Shown piece by piece: positions 15,131-27,926 of a DNA stretch of 34,106 nt (the first letter of the stretch is position 1; the number at the start of each line of letters is the position of its first letter). The DNA comes from a virus. Where the stretch lies: positions 1 to 34,106 of IMG/VR virus record IMGVR_UViG_3300028393_000202; one strand, written 5' to 3'. Position numbers and translations under genes: made by a program. Below the pieces are notes generated by a model that made no database searches, was not told the origin of the DNA, and worked only from the letters and a program-made list of their open reading frames with translations.

Positions 15131-16813
15131 TTATATGTTTCTTGCAATCTCTTTAAAATATCCCGAATATACTTCAGACCCACTAGTGGTTTCCCACACA
15201 TCGCCGTCTTCCACAACAAAAGGTGAATCTAACCCATCACTTAATTCTCCAATTGGCAACATTTCATCGTCTACCTGATTATATTGTTCCAGTTGCAGTT
15301 GTTTTCGAACATCATGGTTTACTATATCTTTGAACAGTCTGTTGGTTGTTAACCAAGCAAATAGAACCAAAGTCATTACCATATCATCATTTGCATCCTC
15401 ATCGGCCGCAAACGTAGTATTGTTTGCTACAAATGTAGTCAACTCTGATATGGTATCAAAATCGTTAATGAATAATTTGTCAGACTCAATTAATGTTTTA
15501 AGATTTGAACAACCAATTCTTTTTACCTGAGTAGACATTTTAACACCTAACTGAACACCTCTTGCAAATCCAGCAGATAGTTGTTGTGCTTTTTTGTTTC
15601 CTGTTTGAACTTTGAGTATATTTTCATACTCCATATCACTATGTAGAATATCTGCAATCTGAGGAGTGTTATTAATTTCTATTAACACATATGCATTATT
15701 ATATAATCTTGCTGCATTATAAATTACGGTAGGAAATAATACAGGTGATATTGATGAACTCTTGTATTTAGCAACCTGTTTATATGGTGTTGTAGATACA
15801 TCAAATATTGAAAAAGCAGATGCATCTAAACCACGACCTTCTGCAATATCAACAGTCATAACATAAAGATGATCTTTGATTGTTTCGTCTTTGTTACCTT
15901 TAATTGGTTGTTCATATACATCAAATAAATCTTTAGACCATATTGGATCAATATATGTCATCATCTGAAGTTTAGAACCAGAGATAAGAGTATTACTGGA
16001 ACCTAAGAATTCAGTCTCAAACTCTTGAGAAAATTGTCTCTGACTTGTATTTCTGATTGTTTCTTCTTTCCATGCCTCATCTCGACCGGGCACTTGTGAC
16101 CAATGAATTTCAAATGGTTTATATCCATTTTTATTATTAATTGCATCCATCCATAGTTTATAGAATAGATTCATACCATTTGGCGTAGAAACAATAATAA
16201 TCTTTGTTGTTTTACCAGATGAAATTACAGGGTAGACTGAGTTGAAGAATTCTGTAGCAATATTGCTAGGTACAAACGCAAATTCATCAAGGAATACTAG
16301 ATTAAATGATCCACCACGAACTGCTGAACTTGACGTTGATGATGCAATAATCTTTGATCCGTTTTCTAATTCTACATTACCTTTGTTCCATGTGACTACA
16401 CCTTGTTGCAACCACATAGGTAAGTTTTCATATGCTAAACAATATTTGGCAAGAATGTCTCTAGCAAGAGAACCTTTGTTAGCAAGAACGGCAATACTTT
16501 GAGAATCATTAAACAACGTCATCCAAAGCAGATAGGCAACTGATGTTGTTGTTTTACCAACTTGTCGAGGACATTTTGTTATGACAAAACGGTTCTCATT
16601 GAATGTTCTGATCATATCTTCTTGAAAGTCATACATTTGAAAAGGAATTAAACCTTGATCAACGTTGACGATCTTCATATATTTTTTGGCAAAATATACT
16701 ACGTCTTTAGAACATTTGATATATTCTTCGACTTGCTCTTGCGTAAAGTTAAGTTCGACACCTACTTTTTTTAAAAGTAAATTGTCACGGTAAGAATCTT
16801 TATTTGATATCAT
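15131..16813 (-). CDS. 17: Terminase large subunit gp17
   Basis: This is the DNA-packaging motor and headful nuclease, 560 residues (T4 gp17 610). Walker A is RQVGKTT within 83-89, Walker B LVFLDE at 172-177, and the coupling motif STPNG at 209-213. The RNase H-like nuclease carries D322 in MTVDIAEG, E379 in VLIEINN, and an Asp-rich segment ANDDMVMT near the C-terminus as the third metal ligand. Its ATG overlaps the end of the HAD-like gene by four bases. It works with gp16 and the gp20 portal, both encoded in this window. Confidence 0.98.
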   Translation of the reverse strand: MISNKDSYRDNLLLKKVGVELNFTQEQVEEYIKCSKDVVYFAKKYMKIVNVDQGLIPFQMYDFQEDMIRTFNENRFVITKCPRQVGKTTTSVAYLLWMTLFNDSQSIAVLANKGSLARDILAKYCLAYENLPMWLQQGVVTWNKGNVELENGSKIIASSTSSSAVRGGSFNLVFLDEFAFVPSNIATEFFNSVYPVISSGKTTKIIIVSTPNGMNLFYKLWMDAINNKNGYKPFEIHWSQVPGRDEAWKEETIRNTSQRQFSQEFETEFLGSSNTLISGSKLQMMTYIDPIWSKDLFDVYEQPIKGNKDETIKDHLYVMTVDIAEGRGLDASAFSIFDVSTTPYKQVAKYKSSSISPVLFPTVIYNAARLYNNAYVLIEINNTPQIADILHSDMEYENILKVQTGNKKAQQLSAGFARGVQLGVKMSTQVKRIGCSNLKTLIESDKLFINDFDTISELTTFVANNTTFAADEDANDDMVMTLVLFAWLTTNRLFKDIVNHDVRKQLQLEQYNQVDDEMLPIGELSDGLDSPFVVEDGDVWETTSGSEVYSGYFKEIARNI

Positions 16814-17451
16814 GCTTTAGATGTAGTTATCTTCACTTTGCCTGTATCTGCATCATGGTGTACATGATGAGCATTAAATTCCACATCTGGATGATCTTTT
16901 TTTAACTCTTTAAATTTCTTTAAATTATCATGCGAGTCATCATACAAATGAACTTTTTTATATCCATGTTTCTTTACTAAATCACCAATAACCTTGTGCT
17001 TTGCTTCTGCTGGTGATGATGCACCTACATTACCTGCTCTACGAACATGCACTTGATGTGTATCAATACCATGATGTTTTAATGTTTTCATAAAACCATG
17101 TTTATCATCCATATCTGCACGGGCAGTAACAATCTCAACATTTTTATTATTCTTGTGTATTGCTCTCAACTTATTAATCATCTTGTGAATTGGATGAGCA
17201 GACTTCTGAAACACTTTGTGTGATCTAAAATCACTGTAGTCATAATGATGACCTGGTTCTAATTTATGGCTATTGTATTCTGTATTGGTTAACGACTTTA
17301 CTCTTTTACCACTTTTATCATTGACATGTACTTTGAGTTTTGAATGGTCATGATGAAACAGCACTTCATCCATATCAAACGCATGAAGTGTTTTTGATTT
17401 TGGATCTTTACGTTCTTGCTGTTCTTCTCTTAAATGTCTAAATGATTTCAT
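16810..17451 (-). CDS. HAD-superfamily phosphatase-like protein between genes 16 and 17
   Basis: This 213-residue protein carries all HAD motifs: motif I FDMDEV with D26 and D28, motif II T109 in EIVTAR, a Lys candidate for motif III near 153, and motif IV DDSHD at 171-175. A phosphatase or phosphotransferase activity is therefore likely, acting on an unknown substrate; HAD domains in phages often process nucleic-acid 3' phosphates, but nothing here fixes that. The protein is remarkably rich in His and Lys (for example KHHGIDTHQVHVRR), so it may bind nucleic acid or metal. It overlaps gene 16 and gene 17 by four bases each, making it an integral member of the terminase operon, a place T4 has no gene. 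Confidence 0.82.
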   Translation of the reverse strand: MKSFRHLREEQQERKDPKSKTLHAFDMDEVLFHHDHSKLKVHVNDKSGKRVKSLTNTEYNSHKLEPGHHYDYSDFRSHKVFQKSAHPIHKMINKLRAIHKNNKNVEIVTARADMDDKHGFMKTLKHHGIDTHQVHVRRAGNVGASSPAEAKHKVIGDLVKKHGYKKVHLYDDSHDNLKKFKELKKDHPDVEFNAHHVHHDADTGKVKITTSKA

Positions 17452-17884: not shown

Positions 17885-18403
17885 TTACCACCAACTACCA
17901 GGATGAGTAATCAATGGAGAATCTAAAGTAAAGGTAACAGGGAAAGCCAAAATACCATTTGCATTTACAATAGAGGACATTGGGCTTGTATCAACTGTAT
18001 AATTTGGACTTGCTGCAAGATTCGCTGGCGCAATAATAAAATTACTACCATCTAAACCTAATATTACTTTGGTAATATTTGTACCACCACTTCCAGTAAC
18101 GGTAAAATTATAACCAAGAGTTCCATTATTTACTAACGCATTTGTGAAAAAATATGCTTGAATTTCTGCTAATTTTGGAGCAGAAAAACTACTTAATGCT
18201 ATTGTATATTGAGCAGTATCCGTAGCATGTGTTCCGTCACTTAACATTCCAATAGATTGACCAAAATCTATAATACCTGGACCAACATATGCTGCAAAAG
18301 GAAAGTCTGTATCTAATATTGTAAATGATGCGCCAACAGCTGGTGCTGGGTCAGTTATTTTTAATCCACCATTAATTCTTAATCCGCCTGCTATTCTTGT
18401 CAT
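17885..18403 (-). CDS. Unrecognised small beta-rich protein with GGL leader
   Basis: This 172-residue protein is unknown to me. The first 18 residues, MTRIAGGLRINGGLKITD, match the leader of the neighbouring 137-residue protein (MT.I.GGL.I.GGL.IT), so the two share a short N-terminal tag. The rest is hydrophobic beta-like and Gly/Asn/Ser/Thr-rich, with no Cys and a terminal SWW. It lacks the C-terminal domain of its neighbour. Position between genes 15 and 16 suggests a virion accessory piece on the neck or tail, which is inference. It is translated 15 bases before gene 16. Confidence 0.8.
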   Translation of the reverse strand: MTRIAGGLRINGGLKITDPAPAVGASFTILDTDFPFAAYVGPGIIDFGQSIGMLSDGTHATDTAQYTIALSSFSAPKLAEIQAYFFTNALVNNGTLGYNFTVTGSGGTNITKVILGLDGSNFIIAPANLAASPNYTVDTSPMSSIVNANGILAFPVTFTLDSPLITHPGSWW

Positions 18404-18414
18404 TTTATTTTCCT

Positions 18415-18828
18415 TTACGGTACTGCTGGATAGTTAGTTGATTTAGCATAACTAGCAAAGATTTTTGCACCAGTAAAATCGTCTGACCAATGTGATTCCC
18501 ATGGCCAATTTCCACCAGTTCCTGCTGAAATTATTCCTCGATATACGTTTGTATATAACCAGTTTGCACCATCCCAATATACACGTTCATCACCATATAT
18601 GTAGTCTGTTTTACCATTAGTTATAGTTGCTGGTGCCATTTTTCTCCAACTTTGACCACCTGAAAATCCACTTGGTGGATATCCTAGCGTATTATACAAT
18701 GGGCCGTCCATTAGGACCCATGCAGTTGCGTTAGGCTCGAATTGATTAGCTTTATTATCGCTACCTATTCCTGGTTTGGTAATTCTTAATCCGCCGGTTA
18801 TTATCAAACCACCTGTTATTGTTGTCAT
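18415..18828 (-). CDS. Free-standing copy of the gp15 C-terminal domain
   Basis: This 137-residue protein has two parts. The leader MTTITGGLIITGGLRITKPG is shared with the 172-aa protein that follows it. Residues 26-137 are a clear paralogue of gp15 residues 345-457 next door: both have EPN(S/A)(S/T)AWVL(I/M)DGP, a SWRKMAP block, YW(N/D)G(S/A)NW, WPWE and the identical ending KSTNYPAVP. The Trp/Tyr-rich surface suggests a ligand-binding or decoration domain, perhaps for sugars; I cannot prove that. It lies 15 bases after gp15, so it probably arose by duplication of the 3' end of that gene with a new leader added. Confidence 0.88.
   Translation of the reverse strand: MTTITGGLIITGGLRITKPGIGSDNKANQFEPNATAWVLMDGPLYNTLGYPPSGFSGGQSWRKMAPATITNGKTDYIYGDERVYWDGANWLYTNVYRGIISAGTGGNWPWESHWSDDFTGAKIFASYAKSTNYPAVP
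18418..18753 (-). repeat. Duplicated domain, copy 2 (in the 137-aa gene)
   Basis: Encodes the Trp-rich domain also found at 18846-19184. The 3' ends are close at DNA level: the 17 bases ggatagttagttgattt (plus strand) occur in both copies near 18430 and 18852. Confidence 0.85.
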
Positions 18829-18842
18829 TTCTTTTTCTTTCT

Positions 18843-20216
18843 TTACGGCACTGCCGGATAGTTAGTTGATTTGTTATAACTGCCTATAATTTTTGCTGCC
18901 TTATAATCATCTGTCCATGTTGCTTCCCACGGCCACTGTCCATTTATACCAGTTGCCACTATGCCTCTAAGGTCGCTTTCATATACCCAATTAGATCCAT
19001 TCCAGTATATATGATCTGTACCATAATTATATGTCATTTTATTAAATGCATTAACTCCTGCAGGTGCCATTTTGCGCCAACTATAACCATCAATAAATCC
19101 TGATGTTGGATCTCCAGTTACATTATAATAAGGACCATCAATCAACACCCATGCACTTGAATTAGGTTCAGCAGCATTAGCAGGATTGTCATCACCTAAA
19201 TGCAGAACAGGTGGAACAGTAGGTGTTATGTTTGGAATTTCTTGTATTGTTGTTGTGTAAGTATATGGATCATTAACATTTGCAGTAAATGGATTAGGTC
19301 TAACAGTAATTTTTGCTTCTTCTATTGGTTGAAGTACATATGATCCAAATGTTCTTGTTGTTCCTGTGTTTTTTCCAATAATTGGATGACTAACCATAAA
19401 GTTGCCATGCAAATTTTTCAGTATGAGTTTATTTGTATCTGGATTCCAACTAATAACTATTGCTGTGGCCGATGATATATCACCTGATGCACCTTGATAG
19501 ACATGCTCACCCTCTTGATAGTTACCTACTCCTGTATCCATGTGTGCAACTAATGAATATACTCCTTGATTTGAATCATCAAGAATATTCGTAATCACTG
19601 TTTTAATAATTTTACCTATTTCTGAATGTGGACCATACAAGAATCCTTTAACAGTAAAACTTAATGTCCAAACAATAATTCTTACTTTTGATGTCATATC
19701 TCCTTCGTACTGAACATCTTGAGATATATCATTTAATATAATAGGTACTTCTTTTGTGACTCCCATTTCAGGAATTAAATTTAATTTTATTGTGTAATCT
19801 GGAGTAAAATATGGAGCAATTCGTTCTACAATTTGCGTACCATCTTCTGTATTTCTTACATAAACATATAACTGAAAATCAAAATCATACGGCACAGGAT
19901 TGTACTGTGCAATTGTTTGACCATTTAAATTTGAGAAATTTTTAAAGTTTGTTGTTTGTTTTCTTGATGCATCATATTTCATACCTGTCATTTCAAATGA
20001 CATTGTTGGTAATGTAATCTGTACTTTTTTGTACAAATCAGGATCACCTTGCAGTCTTAATAGGTAATTTTCTTTACCAGCATATGCGATAGGAACAAGG
20101 AATCGTTCTGCTTCTGTTCCATCACTTTCAAACCTAGCAATTTGAATCTGGTTAAATAAATTACCAAATCCAATAACTAGTTTTCGTATGATTGCGTTAT
20201 ATTGAATTGCTGCCAT
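18843..20216 (-). CDS. 15: Tail terminator/sheath-stabilising protein gp15 with two added domains
   Basis: Residues 1-212 match gp15 of T4 (272 residues), which caps the tail tube and joins tail to neck: RKLVIGFGNLFNQIQI, ITLPTMSFEMTGM, the YDFDFQLYVYVRN strand and DVQYEGDMTSKVRIIVWTL. Residues 219-298 form an extra beta module (EHVYQGASG, ATAIVISW, IIGKNTG) that also occurs at the end of gp14. After a linker, residues 345-457 form a Trp/Tyr-rich domain also present as a separate gene just downstream. The whole is 457 residues, about 185 longer than T4 gp15. The gp15 core is intact, so the additions should hang outside the neck. Its start overlaps the gp14 stop by one base. Confidence 0.92.
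   Translation of the reverse strand: MAAIQYNAIIRKLVIGFGNLFNQIQIARFESDGTEAERFLVPIAYAGKENYLLRLQGDPDLYKKVQITLPTMSFEMTGMKYDASRKQTTNFKNFSNLNGQTIAQYNPVPYDFDFQLYVYVRNTEDGTQIVERIAPYFTPDYTIKLNLIPEMGVTKEVPIILNDISQDVQYEGDMTSKVRIIVWTLSFTVKGFLYGPHSEIGKIIKTVITNILDDSNQGVYSLVAHMDTGVGNYQEGEHVYQGASGDISSATAIVISWNPDTNKLILKNLHGNFMVSHPIIGKNTGTTRTFGSYVLQPIEEAKITVRPNPFTANVNDPYTYTTTIQEIPNITPTVPPVLHLGDDNPANAAEPNSSAWVLIDGPYYNVTGDPTSGFIDGYSWRKMAPAGVNAFNKMTYNYGTDHIYWNGSNWVYESDLRGIVATGINGQWPWEATWTDDYKAAKIIGSYNKSTNYPAVP
18846..19184 (-). repeat. Duplicated domain, copy 1 (C-terminus of gp15)
   Basis: Encodes gp15 residues 345-457, paralogous to the 137-aa protein; more than half the residues match by eye, with one short indel. 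Confidence 0.85.
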
Positions 20217-21112
20217 TACACATGACTTCCAAATGGATTTGATTCACTAAAATTGACAACAGTATTTGCTTCATTTTGAATAACTTTATTATCATATACT
20301 TCACGATATTGTTGATCTAATATTGGATCATAATTGACTAATCTATAATGTGCTTTTGTGGTGTCACCGATAATATCAAACCCGTTAGTGAATTCTCCAA
20401 AAATATTTGATACTTGCAATATTCCGGTATTATCAAATTCTTGTGATATTGTCCACGAAGTCACAACTGCTCTCGATGTGGCATTAGCAACATCAGTTCC
20501 TTGATATACCACTTCTCTAAACAAGTAATCACCGTAACCTGAAGATACATCCATTAAGAATGTCAATGTGTATGCATCGCCAGCAACAACGTCAATATCT
20601 GGTATACCAGTATCGATGAGTTCTTGTGAATATTTGAAGTTCTCTAATGATAATTCATAGAAATATGGATTTTTTCTTCCTAATATGAAGTTATCTTTGT
20701 TTGCGTTTACAAATTTAATTTCAAACAAATCACCTTGACCGCCACTAAATGGAATGTATATTAAATCACCTTCTCTTGGTCGTTCATACAAACCTTGTGG
20801 TAACATTTGAGAGAATGTTCTTTTTGACAAAATAACATTGCTGACGTTTCTAATCTCTAAACCAAATTTAGAAAAAAACTCTTGTTCACCTAAGTCGCCA
20901 GTTGGATTAGACAAGTATAACTCTAATGGCCATGCATTTTTGAATTTCTTTAATGGGTCATCACCAAACAACAAATCTCTTGCTGCTTCATTTTCCAATG
21001 GAATATAGTACCCATCAAATCCATATTGTTTAATGGACTCAACCATCAAATCTTCAATAAGATTTTGCTCTGGTCTATTCTTATAGAAATTAAAATAGGT
21101 ACTTGTTGGCAT
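20216..21112 (-). CDS. 14: Neck protein gp14
   Basis: This protein of 298 residues (T4 gp14 256) is a head-completion/neck component that connects to gp13 and the tail. The N-terminal 170 residues carry the family signature: MPTSTYFNFYKNRPEQNLIE, EDLMVESIKQYGFDGYYIP, FGDDPLKKFKNAWPLE and EGDLIYIPFSGG. Residues 181-263 form a beta module with REVVYQG, A-V-V-T-SW and FDIIGD that recurs in gp15. The gp14 end is thus longer than in T4. It starts one base after gene 13 and overlaps gene 15 by one base, so neck genes are strictly coupled. Confidence 0.93.
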   Translation of the reverse strand: MPTSTYFNFYKNRPEQNLIEDLMVESIKQYGFDGYYIPLENEAARDLLFGDDPLKKFKNAWPLELYLSNPTGDLGEQEFFSKFGLEIRNVSNVILSKRTFSQMLPQGLYERPREGDLIYIPFSGGQGDLFEIKFVNANKDNFILGRKNPYFYELSLENFKYSQELIDTGIPDIDVVAGDAYTLTFLMDVSSGYGDYLFREVVYQGTDVANATSRAVVTSWTISQEFDNTGILQVSNIFGEFTNGFDIIGDTTKAHYRLVNYDPILDQQYREVYDNKVIQNEANTVVNFSESNPFGSHV

Positions 21113-21923: not shown

Positions 21924-24900
21924 TTACTTGATTTTTTGTTTTAACTCATCAAGTTGATCTTGTAGATTTTCGTTTTCTTGTTTTAATTCTTTGATTGCTG
22001 CAAATGCCAAAGCAACTAATTTTTCATAGTCAACAGCAAGAAGTTTATCTCCTCTTTCACGAACTGCTAATGGAAATACTTCTAAAACATCTTGAGCAAT
22101 AACACCAAAATCTTCTTTTCTTACAAAATATCCATCTGCACCACCTTTAGAGTCAATATAGTCATCTGTCCATTCAAACGTCTTACCTCCAATTTTTTCC
22201 ACGGCATCGAGAGCATTCTGTATATTTTGAATATTTTGTTTTAGTGATATATCTGATGAATAATAAGCAGTAATATTATTAACTGCTCTAATTTCACCAC
22301 TAACTCCTGATGCAGCAGTTCCAACACCAAATGATCCCACTTGATATGATGTTGACGTACCCAATGCACTCAGACCTGAACCTGATCCAGTAAATGAGGT
22401 AGCACTCAATGTTCCAGTAGATGGAACATAAGTTAATTTGGTACTTGATGTATTTGCTACAGTAAGAGCACCAGTTGTCACGATTCCCAATAATGGATAA
22501 TGTGCTGTTGCAGTAGTTGTATCATCGGTAATGCTAACTAAATTTGAGGTAACAACCGAATTTACATAAGCATTTGTAGATGCGGCATTAGCAGTAATTC
22601 TAGTATTGATTACTGAGTTTGCGGATGTAGCGTTTGCTGTAACAATAGCATTCACATAGGCATTTGTAGATGCAGCATTTGCTGTAATTAAACTAAAAAC
22701 ATAAGTATTGGTGCTTGCCGCATTTGCTGTAATATATCCATTAATTGTAGCAACGTTAGCAGTAATTACAGAATTCACATAAGCATTTGTAGATGCAGCA
22801 TTTGCTGTAATTAACGAATATGTTGTTGTATCTGATAGTGGAGTAAAACCTAAAGCAGTAGTTACGTTTGCACTTGATAGTGTGACTGCACCAGTCATTC
22901 CATTAAATGATGTTACAGGTGTTTGATTGCTAATTGTTGTTATTCTACCATAAGAATCAACTTGCAATGATGGGTACGAATATGTTCCTGCCGCCAATCC
23001 TGAAATGGCCGCAAGATCCATTGTTATTGTACCTGTAGTGGCACTTTGAGTCAATCTGGTAGTATTGTTTACTGTTATTGATGCAACATTTCCTTGAGAT
23101 GTATAATAAAGTCCAACGGTGTTTGCAGTATATGTTGTAACCTCAATTACATCACCAGACTGTGGCGCAGTAGTAAATGTTATTGTAGAACCAGACAAAC
23201 TATACTGATCTTTATTCTGATATGCACCATTAATGTACAACTGTGTTAGATTTTTTGTTGTTGGTGTTACACTTAATGTGACTGTTGATCCACCACTTGA
23301 TGTAAATGTATCAAGTGAAGAAATAATTACATTATTTGCTTTATCAAATGCTGCTTGTGCCGTCAGATTAGCACTATTTGCTTTTGTAAATGCACTATTA
23401 GCATACGATGCCGTAATGGTAATATCTGTAGCACCAGTATTTGCTTTAGTGTATGCGGCATTGGCATGTGCATAGATATCAAATCCATTTACTGTTGCAG
23501 AGTATGCATTCAAGTTAGCATACAACGTTGCCGTGTTTGCAGCAGTTGCAGAACCTGCAGGCAATGTATTACCTGATGGGTCTTGTGTTAATCCTCTAAA
23601 CAACAAGAAATTATTTGTCCCTGCCTGTCTTACTAAACCATGGTATGTTACTGTTGTTCCTGTATTCGCAACACCATAAAAACCAATATCTAATGAATCA
23701 CTAACTATATTATTAGATGCGAGTTTAATCAGCGAATCTACAGTAGAAACAGTTGTTGTATTGACTGTGGTAGTTGTACCATTAATTACTAAGTTACCAG
23801 TAATACTAACATCACCGGAAATAAGTCCACCACTCTTAGAATAGAATGTGTTGTTTGCATATGCTGATGTACCATTGGCAGCAGTATATGCCGAGTTAGC
23901 ATACGAACCAGCAATCGTTATATTGGTTGCATTCGTATTAGCACTAGTGTATGCTGAATTAGAATATGACTGTGCTAAGTTTGCTGCGGTATAAGCACTG
24001 TTAGCATATGATGCCGTAATAGTATTATTGTTAGCACCCGTGTTTGCTTTAGTATAAGCAGAATTGGCATAAGAAGCAACAATAGTGATATCAATTGCAT
24101 TGGTATTCGCAGATGTATATGCGGAGTTGGCATACGATTGTGCTAAATTGGCTGCCGTGTATGCAGAGTTTGCATAAGTACCAGAACCAGTATTTGCTTT
24201 ATCGAATGCTGCCTGTGCAGTATTATTTCCTGTATTTGCTTGTGTATATGCACTATTTGCGTATGAAGCAGTTATTGTTATATTGGTATTCTGTGTAGTA
24301 TTAACTCCAACGGCACCGTTTGCAGTATCAAATGCTGCTTGTGCTGTTAGATTAGCACTGTTCGCCTGTGTGTATGCAGAGTTAGCATAAGATGCTGCAA
24401 TAGTAATATTAGTATTTTGTGTAGTATTAACTCCAACGGCACCATTAGCAGTTGTATACGCACTATTTGCATATGATGCTGCTATAGTGATATCAGTTGC
24501 ATTTGTATTTGATTTTGTATATGCAGAGTTGGCATAAGAAGCAACAATAGTGATATCTGTTGCATTAGTATTTGACTTATCAAATGCAGATTGCGCTCTT
24601 GTATTTCCTGTATTTGCTTGAGCATACGCAGAGTTAGCATAAGAAGCAACAATAGTAACATTTGTTGCGTTGGTGTTTGATTTATCAAACGATGATTGTG
24701 CAGTTAAGTTGGCACTGTTCGCCTGTGTATATGCCGAGTTCGCATATGATGCAGTAATAGTAATATCAGTGGCATTAGTGTTCGACTTTGTAAATGCACT
24801 ATTTGAATACGATTGTGCTAAATTGGCCGCAGTATAAGCACTATTGGCATATGATGCTACGATTACAATATCTGTTGCATCAGTATTTGCTTTAGTATAT

Positions 24901-27900
24901 GCAGAATTGGCATAAGAAGCAACAATAGTGATATCAGTGGCATTTGTATTTGATTTTGTATAAGCACTATTGGCATATGATTGTGCTAAGTTGGCGGCAA
25001 TATAAGCACTGTTTGCATATGAACTAGCAATCGTTGCATTAGTTGCATTTGTATTTGCAGATGTATATGCTGAGTTAGCATATGACTGTGCTAGATTGGC
25101 CGCTGTGTATGCTGAGTTAGCATATGATGCGGTAATAGTATTATTGTCAGCATTTGTGTTTGCAGTATTGTATGCTGCCTGACCAGTTGCACTTGCACTG
25201 TTTGCTTCACTATATGCAGAGTTGGCATACGAACCAACAATAGTAATATTTGTATTTTGATTTAAATTAACTGCCGCATTATTATTTGCAGTAGCATATG
25301 CAGAACTTGAATATGCACCTAATTCTATACCATTAATGGTTGCTGAGTTTGCGATAAGAGCATTCGTTTGGAATGTTCCCATCGTAATACCTTTACTATC
25401 TGTATTACCACCAATATTAGTAGAAGTATTATACCATGTCAAATACCCAGTTGAATTTTCTCTTACTAGAATTGCTTGATGGTCAGCAGTATCGTAGTAA
25501 TGAAACGCAATACCAATGTTTAGCCCATCATTGGTAGTTAGTGGTGCGAATGTATTTGACGTATGCAAACTAAACATCGCATTTGATAATGTCAAACTAT
25601 TAGTGTAACTTGTAGTTGTATAACCTTGAACGATTAAGTTACCTGTAACAGTTAAACTGTTGTTACCTGAGATAGTAACTGGACCAGATATTGTTCCACC
25701 AGAAGAACTGAATTTTGTATTAGAATTATCAAATGCTGCTTGTGCTGTTAAGTTGGCACTATTTGCTTTAGTGTATGCACTATTGGCATACGATGCCGTT
25801 ATGGTAATATCAGTTGCATTTGTATTTGATTCATTATATGCTGAATTAGCATAAGAACCTGCAATTGTTATGTCAGTTGCATTTGTATTCGATTTCGTAA
25901 ATGCGGAGTTGGCATATGATTGCGCCAAGTTTGCGGCACTATATGCAGAGTTAGCATAAGAACCCGCAATCGTTGAATTATCAGAATCAGTATTTGCTTT
26001 ATCAAATGCTGCTTGTGCTGTTAAGTTGGCACTATTTGCTTTAGTGTATGCACTATTGGCATACGATGCCGTAATAGTAATATCAGTAGCGTTGGTGTTT
26101 GATTTACTAAATGCACTGTTTGCATATGAAGCAACAATAGTAATATCATCGGCATTTGTATTTGCTTTGGTGTATGCCGAGTTTGCATAAGAACCTGCAA
26201 TACTAGTATTGGTAGAATCTGTATTTGCTTTATCGAATGCCGCTTGTGCTATTATATTTCCTGTATTTGCTTGGGTGTACGCACTATTGGCGTATGAAGC
26301 AACAATAGTAATATCATTGGCATTTGTATTTGATTTATCAAACGATGCGTGAGCAGTAGTATTTCCTGTATTTGCTTGGGTGAATGCTGAGTTTGCATAA
26401 GAAGCAACTATTACAATATTATCTGAATTGGTATTCGATTTAGTGAATGCACTGTTTGCATACGATTGTGCCAAATTTGCTTCACTATACGCAGAGTTTG
26501 CATAAGATGCAGTTATCGTATTATTGTCAGCATTTGTGTTGGAACTAGCATATGCCGAGTTAGCATATGAAGCAGTTATTGTTATATCTGTAGCATTAGT
26601 GTTGGATTTATCAAATCCAGATTGTGCAGTTAAGTTGGCACTATTTGCTTCAGTATATGCTGAATTTGCATAGGATGCTACAATTATTATATTGTTTGCG
26701 CCTGTATTTGCTGTATCGAATGCACCATTTGCTGTATCTCTTGCAGTTTGATCTACTGTACCATTACCTAATGTATTGGCATAGTCAAACGCTGCCTGTG
26801 CAGTTATATTTGCGGTGTTTGCTTGAGTAAATGCAGAGTTAGCATAAGAAGCAACTATTACTATGTTATTAGCATCTGTATTTGCTGTATCAAATGCACC
26901 ATTTGCTGTATCTCTTGCTGTTTGGTCAATAGTACCTGCACCAATTGTGTTTGCATAATCAAACGCTGCCTGTGCAGTTATATTTGCGGTGTTTGCTCTG
27001 TCTAGAATTCTGATGTTAGAATCATATACTGCATCACCGTATATTGAACCGTTTGCACCAATACCACCATGAACAACTAATGCACCACTTGAATTACTTG
27101 TTGATGCTGTTTTTGTTTTGACTACTAAACCTTCATGTAGCACAAATCGAGCAACTTCATTATCTGTATCTGAACCTTGGACGAATACAATATCACCAAT
27201 TTGATTGCCACCAGAACCAGAACCTGATGTTCCAAAGAAAACGTTACCACCAAAATTCTGAGATGCATTACCTTGCATCAACAGATAACCATCATTTGGA
27301 TTAACAAAATGCCATGAATTGTAATTACTATTGACATACGTGGAACCAGCAATACCCATGTCTAGGTAATTGATTTCATCGGTTCCATTATCAGCAGTTA
27401 CAACAAAATCCGCTGTACCGTTAGCATTAATATTTTGTTGATTAACTTGTGAGTATAATTCTGTATTGCCTGTAAATTGAGCAACAAGATTTGGAAGAAT
27501 GGTGTATGCACCTGTACCTACAACAATAGTATTTTGCACATTGGCATGACCAAGTATATCTATATTACCATAGAGTGTTCCACCGTTTGCACTAAAACGT
27601 GTATTGGAATGATTGAATGCACCTTGTGCAGTATTACTTGTTGCACCGTCACCAATTGTAATAGTTTTACCTGATCCAGAAACACTAATACCAAATGCAG
27701 AATTAATACTTAATATATCTGTATTTGATGTTGCAAATAATAATGTTGAATCTACATTGATTGTATTGAATGAGTCCGTTGAACTAATATATCCAATTGA
27801 CTCATCGGCCGCCTTGTAATATAATCGTCCATCATCATAGTTTAGTGCCGGTTCACCATATTGTAGGTCAACCGGTACATTCCCTGATACTCCAGATTTT

Positions 27901-27926
27901 TTTAGTTGGATCTTTGTGTTCGACAT
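21924..27926 (-). CDS. Giant repeat tail fibre with S74 intramolecular chaperone
   Basis: This 2000-residue fibre protein probably contacts the host. The N-terminus (NTKIQLKKSG, then LQYGEPALNYDDGRLYYKA) matches the virion-attachment start shared with the 789-aa fibre. From about residue 308 to 1530 the chain is an Ala/Asn/Thr-rich repeat with about 35 copies of SYANSA, interrupted by two beta inserts (about 742-889 and 1352-1482). Residues about 1640-1700 include FNGMTGAVTLSSANVT, a common fibre element, followed by an 18-residue ITANAASTNAYVNS repeat. The last 111 residues are a Peptidase_S74 chaperone: S1891-D..K1896 mark the self-cleavage site, then FGVIAQDVLEVFP and a coiled coil. It should trimerise, fold the shaft and cut itself off. 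Confidence 0.93.
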   Translation of the reverse strand: MSNTKIQLKKSGVSGNVPVDLQYGEPALNYDDGRLYYKAADESIGYISSTDSFNTINVDSTLLFATSNTDILSINSAFGISVSGSGKTITIGDGATSNTAQGAFNHSNTRFSANGGTLYGNIDILGHANVQNTIVVGTGAYTILPNLVAQFTGNTELYSQVNQQNINANGTADFVVTADNGTDEINYLDMGIAGSTYVNSNYNSWHFVNPNDGYLLMQGNASQNFGGNVFFGTSGSGSGGNQIGDIVFVQGSDTDNEVARFVLHEGLVVKTKTASTSNSSGALVVHGGIGANGSIYGDAVYDSNIRILDRANTANITAQAAFDYANTIGAGTIDQTARDTANGAFDTANTDANNIVIVASYANSAFTQANTANITAQAAFDYANTLGNGTVDQTARDTANGAFDTANTGANNIIIVASYANSAYTEANSANLTAQSGFDKSNTNATDITITASYANSAYASSNTNADNNTITASYANSAYSEANLAQSYANSAFTKSNTNSDNIVIVASYANSAFTQANTGNTTAHASFDKSNTNANDITIVASYANSAYTQANTGNIIAQAAFDKANTDSTNTSIAGSYANSAYTKANTNADDITIVASYANSAFSKSNTNATDITITASYANSAYTKANSANLTAQAAFDKANTDSDNSTIAGSYANSAYSAANLAQSYANSAFTKSNTNATDITIAGSYANSAYNESNTNATDITITASYANSAYTKANSANLTAQAAFDNSNTKFSSSGGTISGPVTISGNNSLTVTGNLIVQGYTTTSYTNSLTLSNAMFSLHTSNTFAPLTTNDGLNIGIAFHYYDTADHQAILVRENSTGYLTWYNTSTNIGGNTDSKGITMGTFQTNALIANSATINGIELGAYSSSAYATANNNAAVNLNQNTNITIVGSYANSAYSEANSASATGQAAYNTANTNADNNTITASYANSAYTAANLAQSYANSAYTSANTNATNATIASSYANSAYIAANLAQSYANSAYTKSNTNATDITIVASYANSAYTKANTDATDIVIVASYANSAYTAANLAQSYSNSAFTKSNTNATDITITASYANSAYTQANSANLTAQSSFDKSNTNATNVTIVASYANSAYAQANTGNTRAQSAFDKSNTNATDITIVASYANSAYTKSNTNATDITIAASYANSAYTTANGAVGVNTTQNTNITIAASYANSAYTQANSANLTAQAAFDTANGAVGVNTTQNTNITITASYANSAYTQANTGNNTAQAAFDKANTGSGTYANSAYTAANLAQSYANSAYTSANTNAIDITIVASYANSAYTKANTGANNNTITASYANSAYTAANLAQSYSNSAYTSANTNATNITIAGSYANSAYTAANGTSAYANNTFYSKSGGLISGDVSITGNLVINGTTTTVNTTTVSTVDSLIKLASNNIVSDSLDIGFYGVANTGTTVTYHGLVRQAGTNNFLLFRGLTQDPSGNTLPAGSATAANTATLYANLNAYSATVNGFDIYAHANAAYTKANTGATDITITASYANSAFTKANSANLTAQAAFDKANNVIISSLDTFTSSGGSTVTLSVTPTTKNLTQLYINGAYQNKDQYSLSGSTITFTTAPQSGDVIEVTTYTANTVGLYYTSQGNVASITVNNTTRLTQSATTGTITMDLAAISGLAAGTYSYPSLQVDSYGRITTISNQTPVTSFNGMTGAVTLSSANVTTALGFTPLSDTTTYSLITANAASTNAYVNSVITANVATINGYITANAASTNTYVFSLITANAASTNAYVNAIVTANATSANSVINTRITANAASTNAYVNSVVTSNLVSITDDTTTATAHYPLLGIVTTGALTVANTSSTKLTYVPSTGTLSATSFTGSGSGLSALGTSTSYQVGSFGVGTAASGVSGEIRAVNNITAYYSSDISLKQNIQNIQNALDAVEKIGGKTFEWTDDYIDSKGGADGYFVRKEDFGVIAQDVLEVFPLAVRERGDKLLAVDYEKLVALAFAAIKELKQENENLQDQLDELKQKIK
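22540..22810 (-). repeat. 18-residue ITANAASTNAYVNS repeat block
   Basis: A separate repeat near the C-terminal end of the giant fibre: about six imperfect 45-54-base units sharing the plus-strand core tagatgcagcatttgctgt. Confidence 0.8.
23340..27005 (-). repeat. Long degenerate coding tandem repeat (SYANSA/ANT array)
   Basis: About 3.7 kb of in-frame imperfect repeats with units around 48-90 bases, built from three phrases: ANSAYTKANTNATDITIVASY, LAQSYANSAYT and ANLTAQAAFDKANT. Codons vary between units, so the array is old and kept at protein level, yet some neighbouring units are nearly identical at DNA level (for example near 25740-25800 and 26020-26065). Two non-repeat inserts split it. 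Confidence 0.9.

Follow-up and report, generated by a model that had tools for sequence, protein, structure and literature searches.

Why does a phage tail terminator end in a domain that the next gene encodes a second time? The question was raised by a 34-kb record of an uncultured virus (IMG/VR record IMGVR_UViG_3300028393_000202; the window means all 34,106 nucleotides of it). The initial annotation had described there a gp15, the protein that forms a hexamer in T4, with two added domains, and had proposed that the last of these was copied into the neighbouring gene. Both open reading frames were confirmed: gp15 at 18843..20216 (minus strand, 457 aa) and the next gene at 18415..18828 (minus strand, 137 aa). 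They belong to a minus-strand cluster of T4-like structural genes, in which the order of transcription was a ~2000-residue fibre-like ORF, gp13, gp14, gp15, the 137-aa gene, and a 172-aa gene, followed by terS (gp16), a 213-aa gene, terL (gp17), the sheath gene (gp18), and the tube gene. The relatives discussed below are fetched IMG/VR loci, labelled L with a number. The 2000-aa fibre-like ORF (21924-27926) contained many SYANSAYTxANT repeats and an end that by eye resembled an intramolecular chaperone domain, and the 213-aa gene between terS and terL (16810-17451) had a polynucleotide-kinase match (phrog_415, E 8e-9). Scans for RNA families, promoters, and terminators gave nothing notable.

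The core of gp15 (residues 6-217, 19566..20201, delimited by the Pfam and PHROG alignments) matched PF16724 (T4-gp15_tss) at an E of 2e-68, and gp15 also matched phrog_227 (E 5e-73) and, by sequence, the solved T4 gp15 (E 1.4e-23). Furthermore, a Foldseek search with the gp15 model matched the T4 protein in the T4 neck complex 9mkb at an E of 1e-13. The core profile and the gene order gp13-gp14-gp15-gp16-gp17 identify the protein as a T4 gp15-type tail sheath terminator (stabilizer). The core is thus alike in T4 by sequence and predicted fold, whereas T4 gp15 has 272 residues versus 457; its match ended at residue 216, and no counterpart of either added domain was matched. Beyond the core, gp15 of the window was divided, all on the minus strand, into a first added domain (DOM1, residues 219-298, approximately; 19323..19562), a C-terminal arm (299-329, 19230..19322) at which related gp15s end in the alignment, a linker with the sequence ITPTVPPVLHL (330-340, 19197..19229), and a fused domain, here called WPWE (341-457, 18846..19196). 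The two extra domains could therefore be recognized as described, and the C-terminal repeat was confirmed, although it starts at residue 341 rather than at 345 as had been annotated. In the predicted model, pLDDT was below 50 across residues 295-354. Complete gp15 ORFs in the fetched loci had 257-279, 326-330 (with DOM1), or 457 aa, besides one 376-aa ORF in which gp15 and terS were joined in a single frame (L020:961-2091); the 457-aa form was found only in the window and in a sister contig, L016.

DOM1 resembled the C-terminal part of gp14 encoded in the window, with a score of 84 against 31 for shuffled sequences (sd 4.6), and its HMM located the copy in this neck protein at residues 191-261 (20330..20542, minus strand, E 8e-17). 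Among the fetched loci, overlapping ones included, the HMM matched gp14 58 times and gp15 31 times. It also matched gp14 of the cultured cyanophage S-B43 (E 2e-9), and a direct search of cultured phages gave cyanophage neck and gp7/baseplate wedge proteins with marginal E values of 2e-3 to 0.06. The match of S-B43 gp15 to the window gp15 extended to residue 272, while the DOM1 HMM had no match in S-B43 gp15. Judged by sequence, DOM1 is an ordinary domain, which the neighbouring gp14 and the gp14 of cyanophages contain as well. Residues 219-298 are indeed extra relative to gp15s of 257-279 aa, but every related gp15 of 326-330 aa has them, and the view of DOM1 as an unusual addition to the neck had to be abandoned since gp14 shares it.

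The 137-aa gene encodes a 21-residue leader (MTTITGGLIITGGLRITKPGI, 18766..18828, minus strand), which recurs in the following gene and in small genes of relatives, and a free WPWE domain (residues 21-137); it was supported by 70 related loci. Residues 341-457 of gp15 and residues 21-137 of the free protein were 57% identical across 117 aa (tblastn E 1e-44), with an alignment score of 391 versus a shuffle mean of 38 (sd 6), and the elements SWRKMAP, YW.G.NW, WPWE, and KSTNYPAVP occurred in both. The last domain of gp15 is accordingly repeated as a gene with its own leader. Structure prediction gave the same strands for the two C-terminal regions; they were predicted in the second half of the domain, at residues 73-78, 81-85, 90-94, 98-104, and 119-123 of the free protein and 394-398, 401-405, 410-414, 418-424, and 439-442 of gp15. 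The dN/dS of the free gene was 0.08 between the window and L016 and 0.12 between the window and L003, which indicates that the gene is coding and under purifying selection. Its Shine-Dalgarno pairing is weak (-0.9 kcal/mol, versus -5.4 in L003), yet the start lies 14 nt past the gp15 stop and some ordinary genes of the window are equally weak.

WPWE was encoded by about 90 IMG/VR loci and was the last domain in every locus read. Its usual state there was the free gene; a gp15-borne copy was found only in the window and L016. Among the parts to which it was attached were leaders of only 17-28 residues, an N-terminal part of 89 residues that matched phrog_17325, a protein of 966 aa matching baseplate-wedge and CBM5/12 profiles, one protein each of the GLEYA/PA14 and FG-GAP types, and gp15; CBM5/12, GLEYA/PA14, and LamG were found on WPWE carriers or adjoining genes. 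Each of 22 related records (17-174 kb) contained one full copy and the window and L016 two, so that the window phage has two versions of a part present only once in all long related contigs that were checked, except L016. Weaker repeats of the WPW type were also observed: in L056 and L064 they precede the domain within one protein, and in L122 they lie in the shaft of a large fibre. The ends of the domain (the first 45 and last 20 residues) were near-invariant and residues 67-107 of the free protein variable; the conserved ends were mostly of low confidence when modelled alone.

No match to WPWE was obtained among Pfam and PHROG profiles, PDB sequences, or 50,697 phage records, and no relative was found in GTDB prokaryotic genomes. 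Foldseek searches of the PDB and viral structures with the model of the free protein, which was of middling confidence, returned nothing at E <= 0.001; the best viral match, to Clandestinovirus (E 0.08, TM 0.56 on the target), is a lead only. Neither Pfam and PHROG nor Foldseek with this model assigned WPWE confidently to the Ig, FN3, or Big families, and Pfam and Foldseek gave no CBM or lectin profile or fold for WPWE itself. These sequence comparisons are best read as defining an undescribed, horizontally exchanged C-terminal domain of putative virion proteins in uncultured T4-like phages, which passes between phages and between carriers. Diversification of WPWE by a diversity-generating retroelement (DGR) was considered and rejected; no reverse transcriptase (RVT_1) was present in 15 possibly incomplete records, including the 174-kb contig.

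How did the two copies come to lie side by side? An assembly chimera was ruled out as the source of the fusion because L016, a separate contig, carries the same one: the fused genes have the same layout and are 93-99% identical per 150-base bin, with about 93-100% identity per bin over gp13-gp15 and 91-94% into the free gene. Between L027 and L035, WPWE was 98% identical and gp13, gp14, and gp15 only 45-50%; in locus pairs with gp15 cores less than 35% identical, WPWE still reached 50-73%. On the tree, the fused pair (window and L016) grouped with the free copy of L015 (support 95/84), and the free copy of the window grouped with that of L003 (support 100/100). A recent tandem duplication of the neighbouring gene is therefore disfavoured, although forcing the fused and neighbouring copies together gave a p-AU of 0.061 (0.06), which is indecisive and does not reject it. 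Furthermore, DNA identity to L003, which lacks the fused domain, was 54-81% through gp13-gp15 and rose abruptly to 93-97% in a stretch that spans the free gene and extends into the 172-aa gene, indicating that the block of these two genes arrived by recombination. The gp15 linker (330-340) resembled the last part of the free-gene leader (compare LRITNPPPPGIG and LRITDPPPPTIG in L013 and L015). Consequently, the proposal that the gp15 domain was copied into the next gene is not supported: WPWE is usually carried by a free gene, the fused copy falls on the tree with a free copy of another phage, and the neighbour came by recombination. It is best replaced by the following course, whose order of events is our reconstruction from sequence: in the lineage of the window, a free WPWE gene directly behind gp15 would have been deprived of its start and of the greater part of its leader, thereby becoming the gp15 tail, and a second WPWE gene would then have been imported with its neighbour from an L003-like phage. 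The locus can serve as a test case for fusion of a domain to a core ring protein and the apparent later acquisition of a free gene as its replacement.

Taking these results together, we regard it as about 50% probable that WPWE, undescribed and exchanged, is a surface-binding domain displayed from the neck in two versions after this fusion and import. In phage Milano, as also in the R-type pyocin, the C-terminal arm of the tail terminator extends to the top sheath ring (PMC10491603); by analogy, a domain placed after the gp15 arm would be displayed on the sheath at its head-proximal end. Six gp15 subunits may thus present the fused domain on a flexible arm, and the free leader protein would add a second WPWE version. 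We infer that WPWE is most likely a surface-binding head, which would bind a ligand on cells or in the environment, with the conserved ends as a frame and the variable middle conferring specificity. In most phages one gene carries WPWE, encoding either a short-leader protein near gp13-gp17 or a fibre-, adhesin-, or baseplate-type protein with WPWE as its last domain. A decoration or adhesion role, as the initial annotation had suggested, is plausible, and adhesion is favoured because of the carriers and neighbours of the domain, among them proteins with baseplate-wedge and CBM5/12, GLEYA/PA14, and FG-GAP matches, and because of two precedents. Promiscuous Ig-like domains of tailed phages are likewise appended to several virion protein classes, exchanged, and thought to aid weak surface binding (PMC9022992). 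They have been reported on tail fibre, baseplate, tail tube, capsid, and Hoc proteins, whereas WPWE occurs on a tail terminator, outside the classes listed for these best known promiscuous phage domains; it also differs in being present usually once per phage, in lying only at C-termini, and in matching no Ig family or fold. Lactococcal 936 phages have neck passage structures with carbohydrate-binding modules, in which a conserved N-terminal part presents exchangeable C-terminal heads at the neck (PMC6669499). Those phages are siphophages with a dedicated collar protein of 500-900 aa and a helical fibre, in contrast to the terminator fusion and 137-aa protein of the window, and WPWE has no CBM match. 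If WPWE binds surfaces, the neck would join fibres and capsid as a site of attachment evolution in T4-like phages.

The surface-binding reading has to be weighed against the lack of any matched lectin or binding fold and against the conservation of the domain. Considered as a candidate tail-fibre tip domain, WPWE has a C-terminal position throughout. Its sequence is conserved to a higher degree than that of gp15, which is not the case for most receptor-binding tips. The main rival to adhesion is a docking or oligomerisation end-piece that is no adhesin; its invariant ends would join diverse cargo proteins together or anchor them at a single conserved site of the virion, and the gp15 fusion would have made it part of the neck. 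This rival would explain why the cargo varies while WPWE stays, why there is a single copy per phage, and why the near-invariant ends are of low confidence alone, as expected of parts packed against a partner. However, the middle stretch of the domain is variable, and in many phages the cargo is only a leader of 17-25 residues, which leaves nothing to dock; we consider docking possible but doubtful. The fused copy itself has substitutions at 7 of the 43 positions that hardly vary in other copies, versus at most 3 in any other row, has a branch length of 0.89 compared with 0.083 for L015, and has a dN/dS of 0.31 versus 0.11 for the rest of gp15, based on few changes. The fused domain is thus perhaps less strongly constrained than the free gene, and its function may no longer be that of the other WPWE copies, a point that also counts against surface binding. 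These values would suit a tolerated recombination scar of little function, in which an old free gene came into frame with gp15 and drifts while the incoming free gene works. We think this unlikely: in both known fused copies the reading frame is intact over all 117 aa and stops exactly at KSTNYPAVP, the ratio is still below 1, and maintaining an extra domain on an essential, hexameric component of the ring would presumably be costly. Least credible is the earlier idea that the free copy could mask or vary the fused one, or assemble next to it. The identity, adjacency, and common predicted strands of the two copies speak for such joint action, but their recent histories differ and the fused copy has lost conserved residues, making it highly improbable.

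The leader of the 137-aa gene, a GGL leader, is common to the 172-aa gene (17885..18403, minus strand), in which a 19-aa leader match is followed by a different head domain; the latter gene had no match in the phage records and had homologues at the same place in relatives. Relatives had additional small genes at this place that combine the leader, at either terminus, with other heads; in L013 and L004 one such head is a lectin-like domain of the LamG/ConA type. A wider search for the leader by DNA patterns yielded only L003, L016, and L015. The interval g15-g18 is known as a hyper-variable region of cyanomyoviruses (PMC2984593); the window has the same interval with variable gene content, whereas the predicted functions in cyanomyoviruses are metabolic and the window encodes small leader-plus-head proteins. 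We tentatively suggest, as a view that is itself somewhat improbable, that T4-like phages may have an exchangeable neck-adhesin cassette near gp15-gp16, from which short proteins with the GGL leader and a replaceable head (WPWE, LamG, or another) would attach at the neck; here one head would have become permanent on the terminator ring, giving a second adhesion set at the head end of the tail.

Further features were observed in the structural gene clusters of relatives. ORFs of 340 aa in L007 (3076-4098), L011, and L012 had an insert of roughly 55-80 aa that breaks the gp13 match, and tail sheath ORFs of 645-836 aa in L042 (9015-11525), L022, L038, and similar loci had inserts of up to ~300 aa that break the sheath match. 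In L069 (9309-11929), from the same phage as L122, terL was split into two ORFs separated by a gap of ~600 bases that looks like an insertion, possibly an intron or intein. By eye, an ORF between gp13 and gp14 in L135 (1430-2041) resembled a homing endonuclease, and one between gp15 and terS in L143 (4380-5411) resembled a TnpB/OrfB transposon protein.
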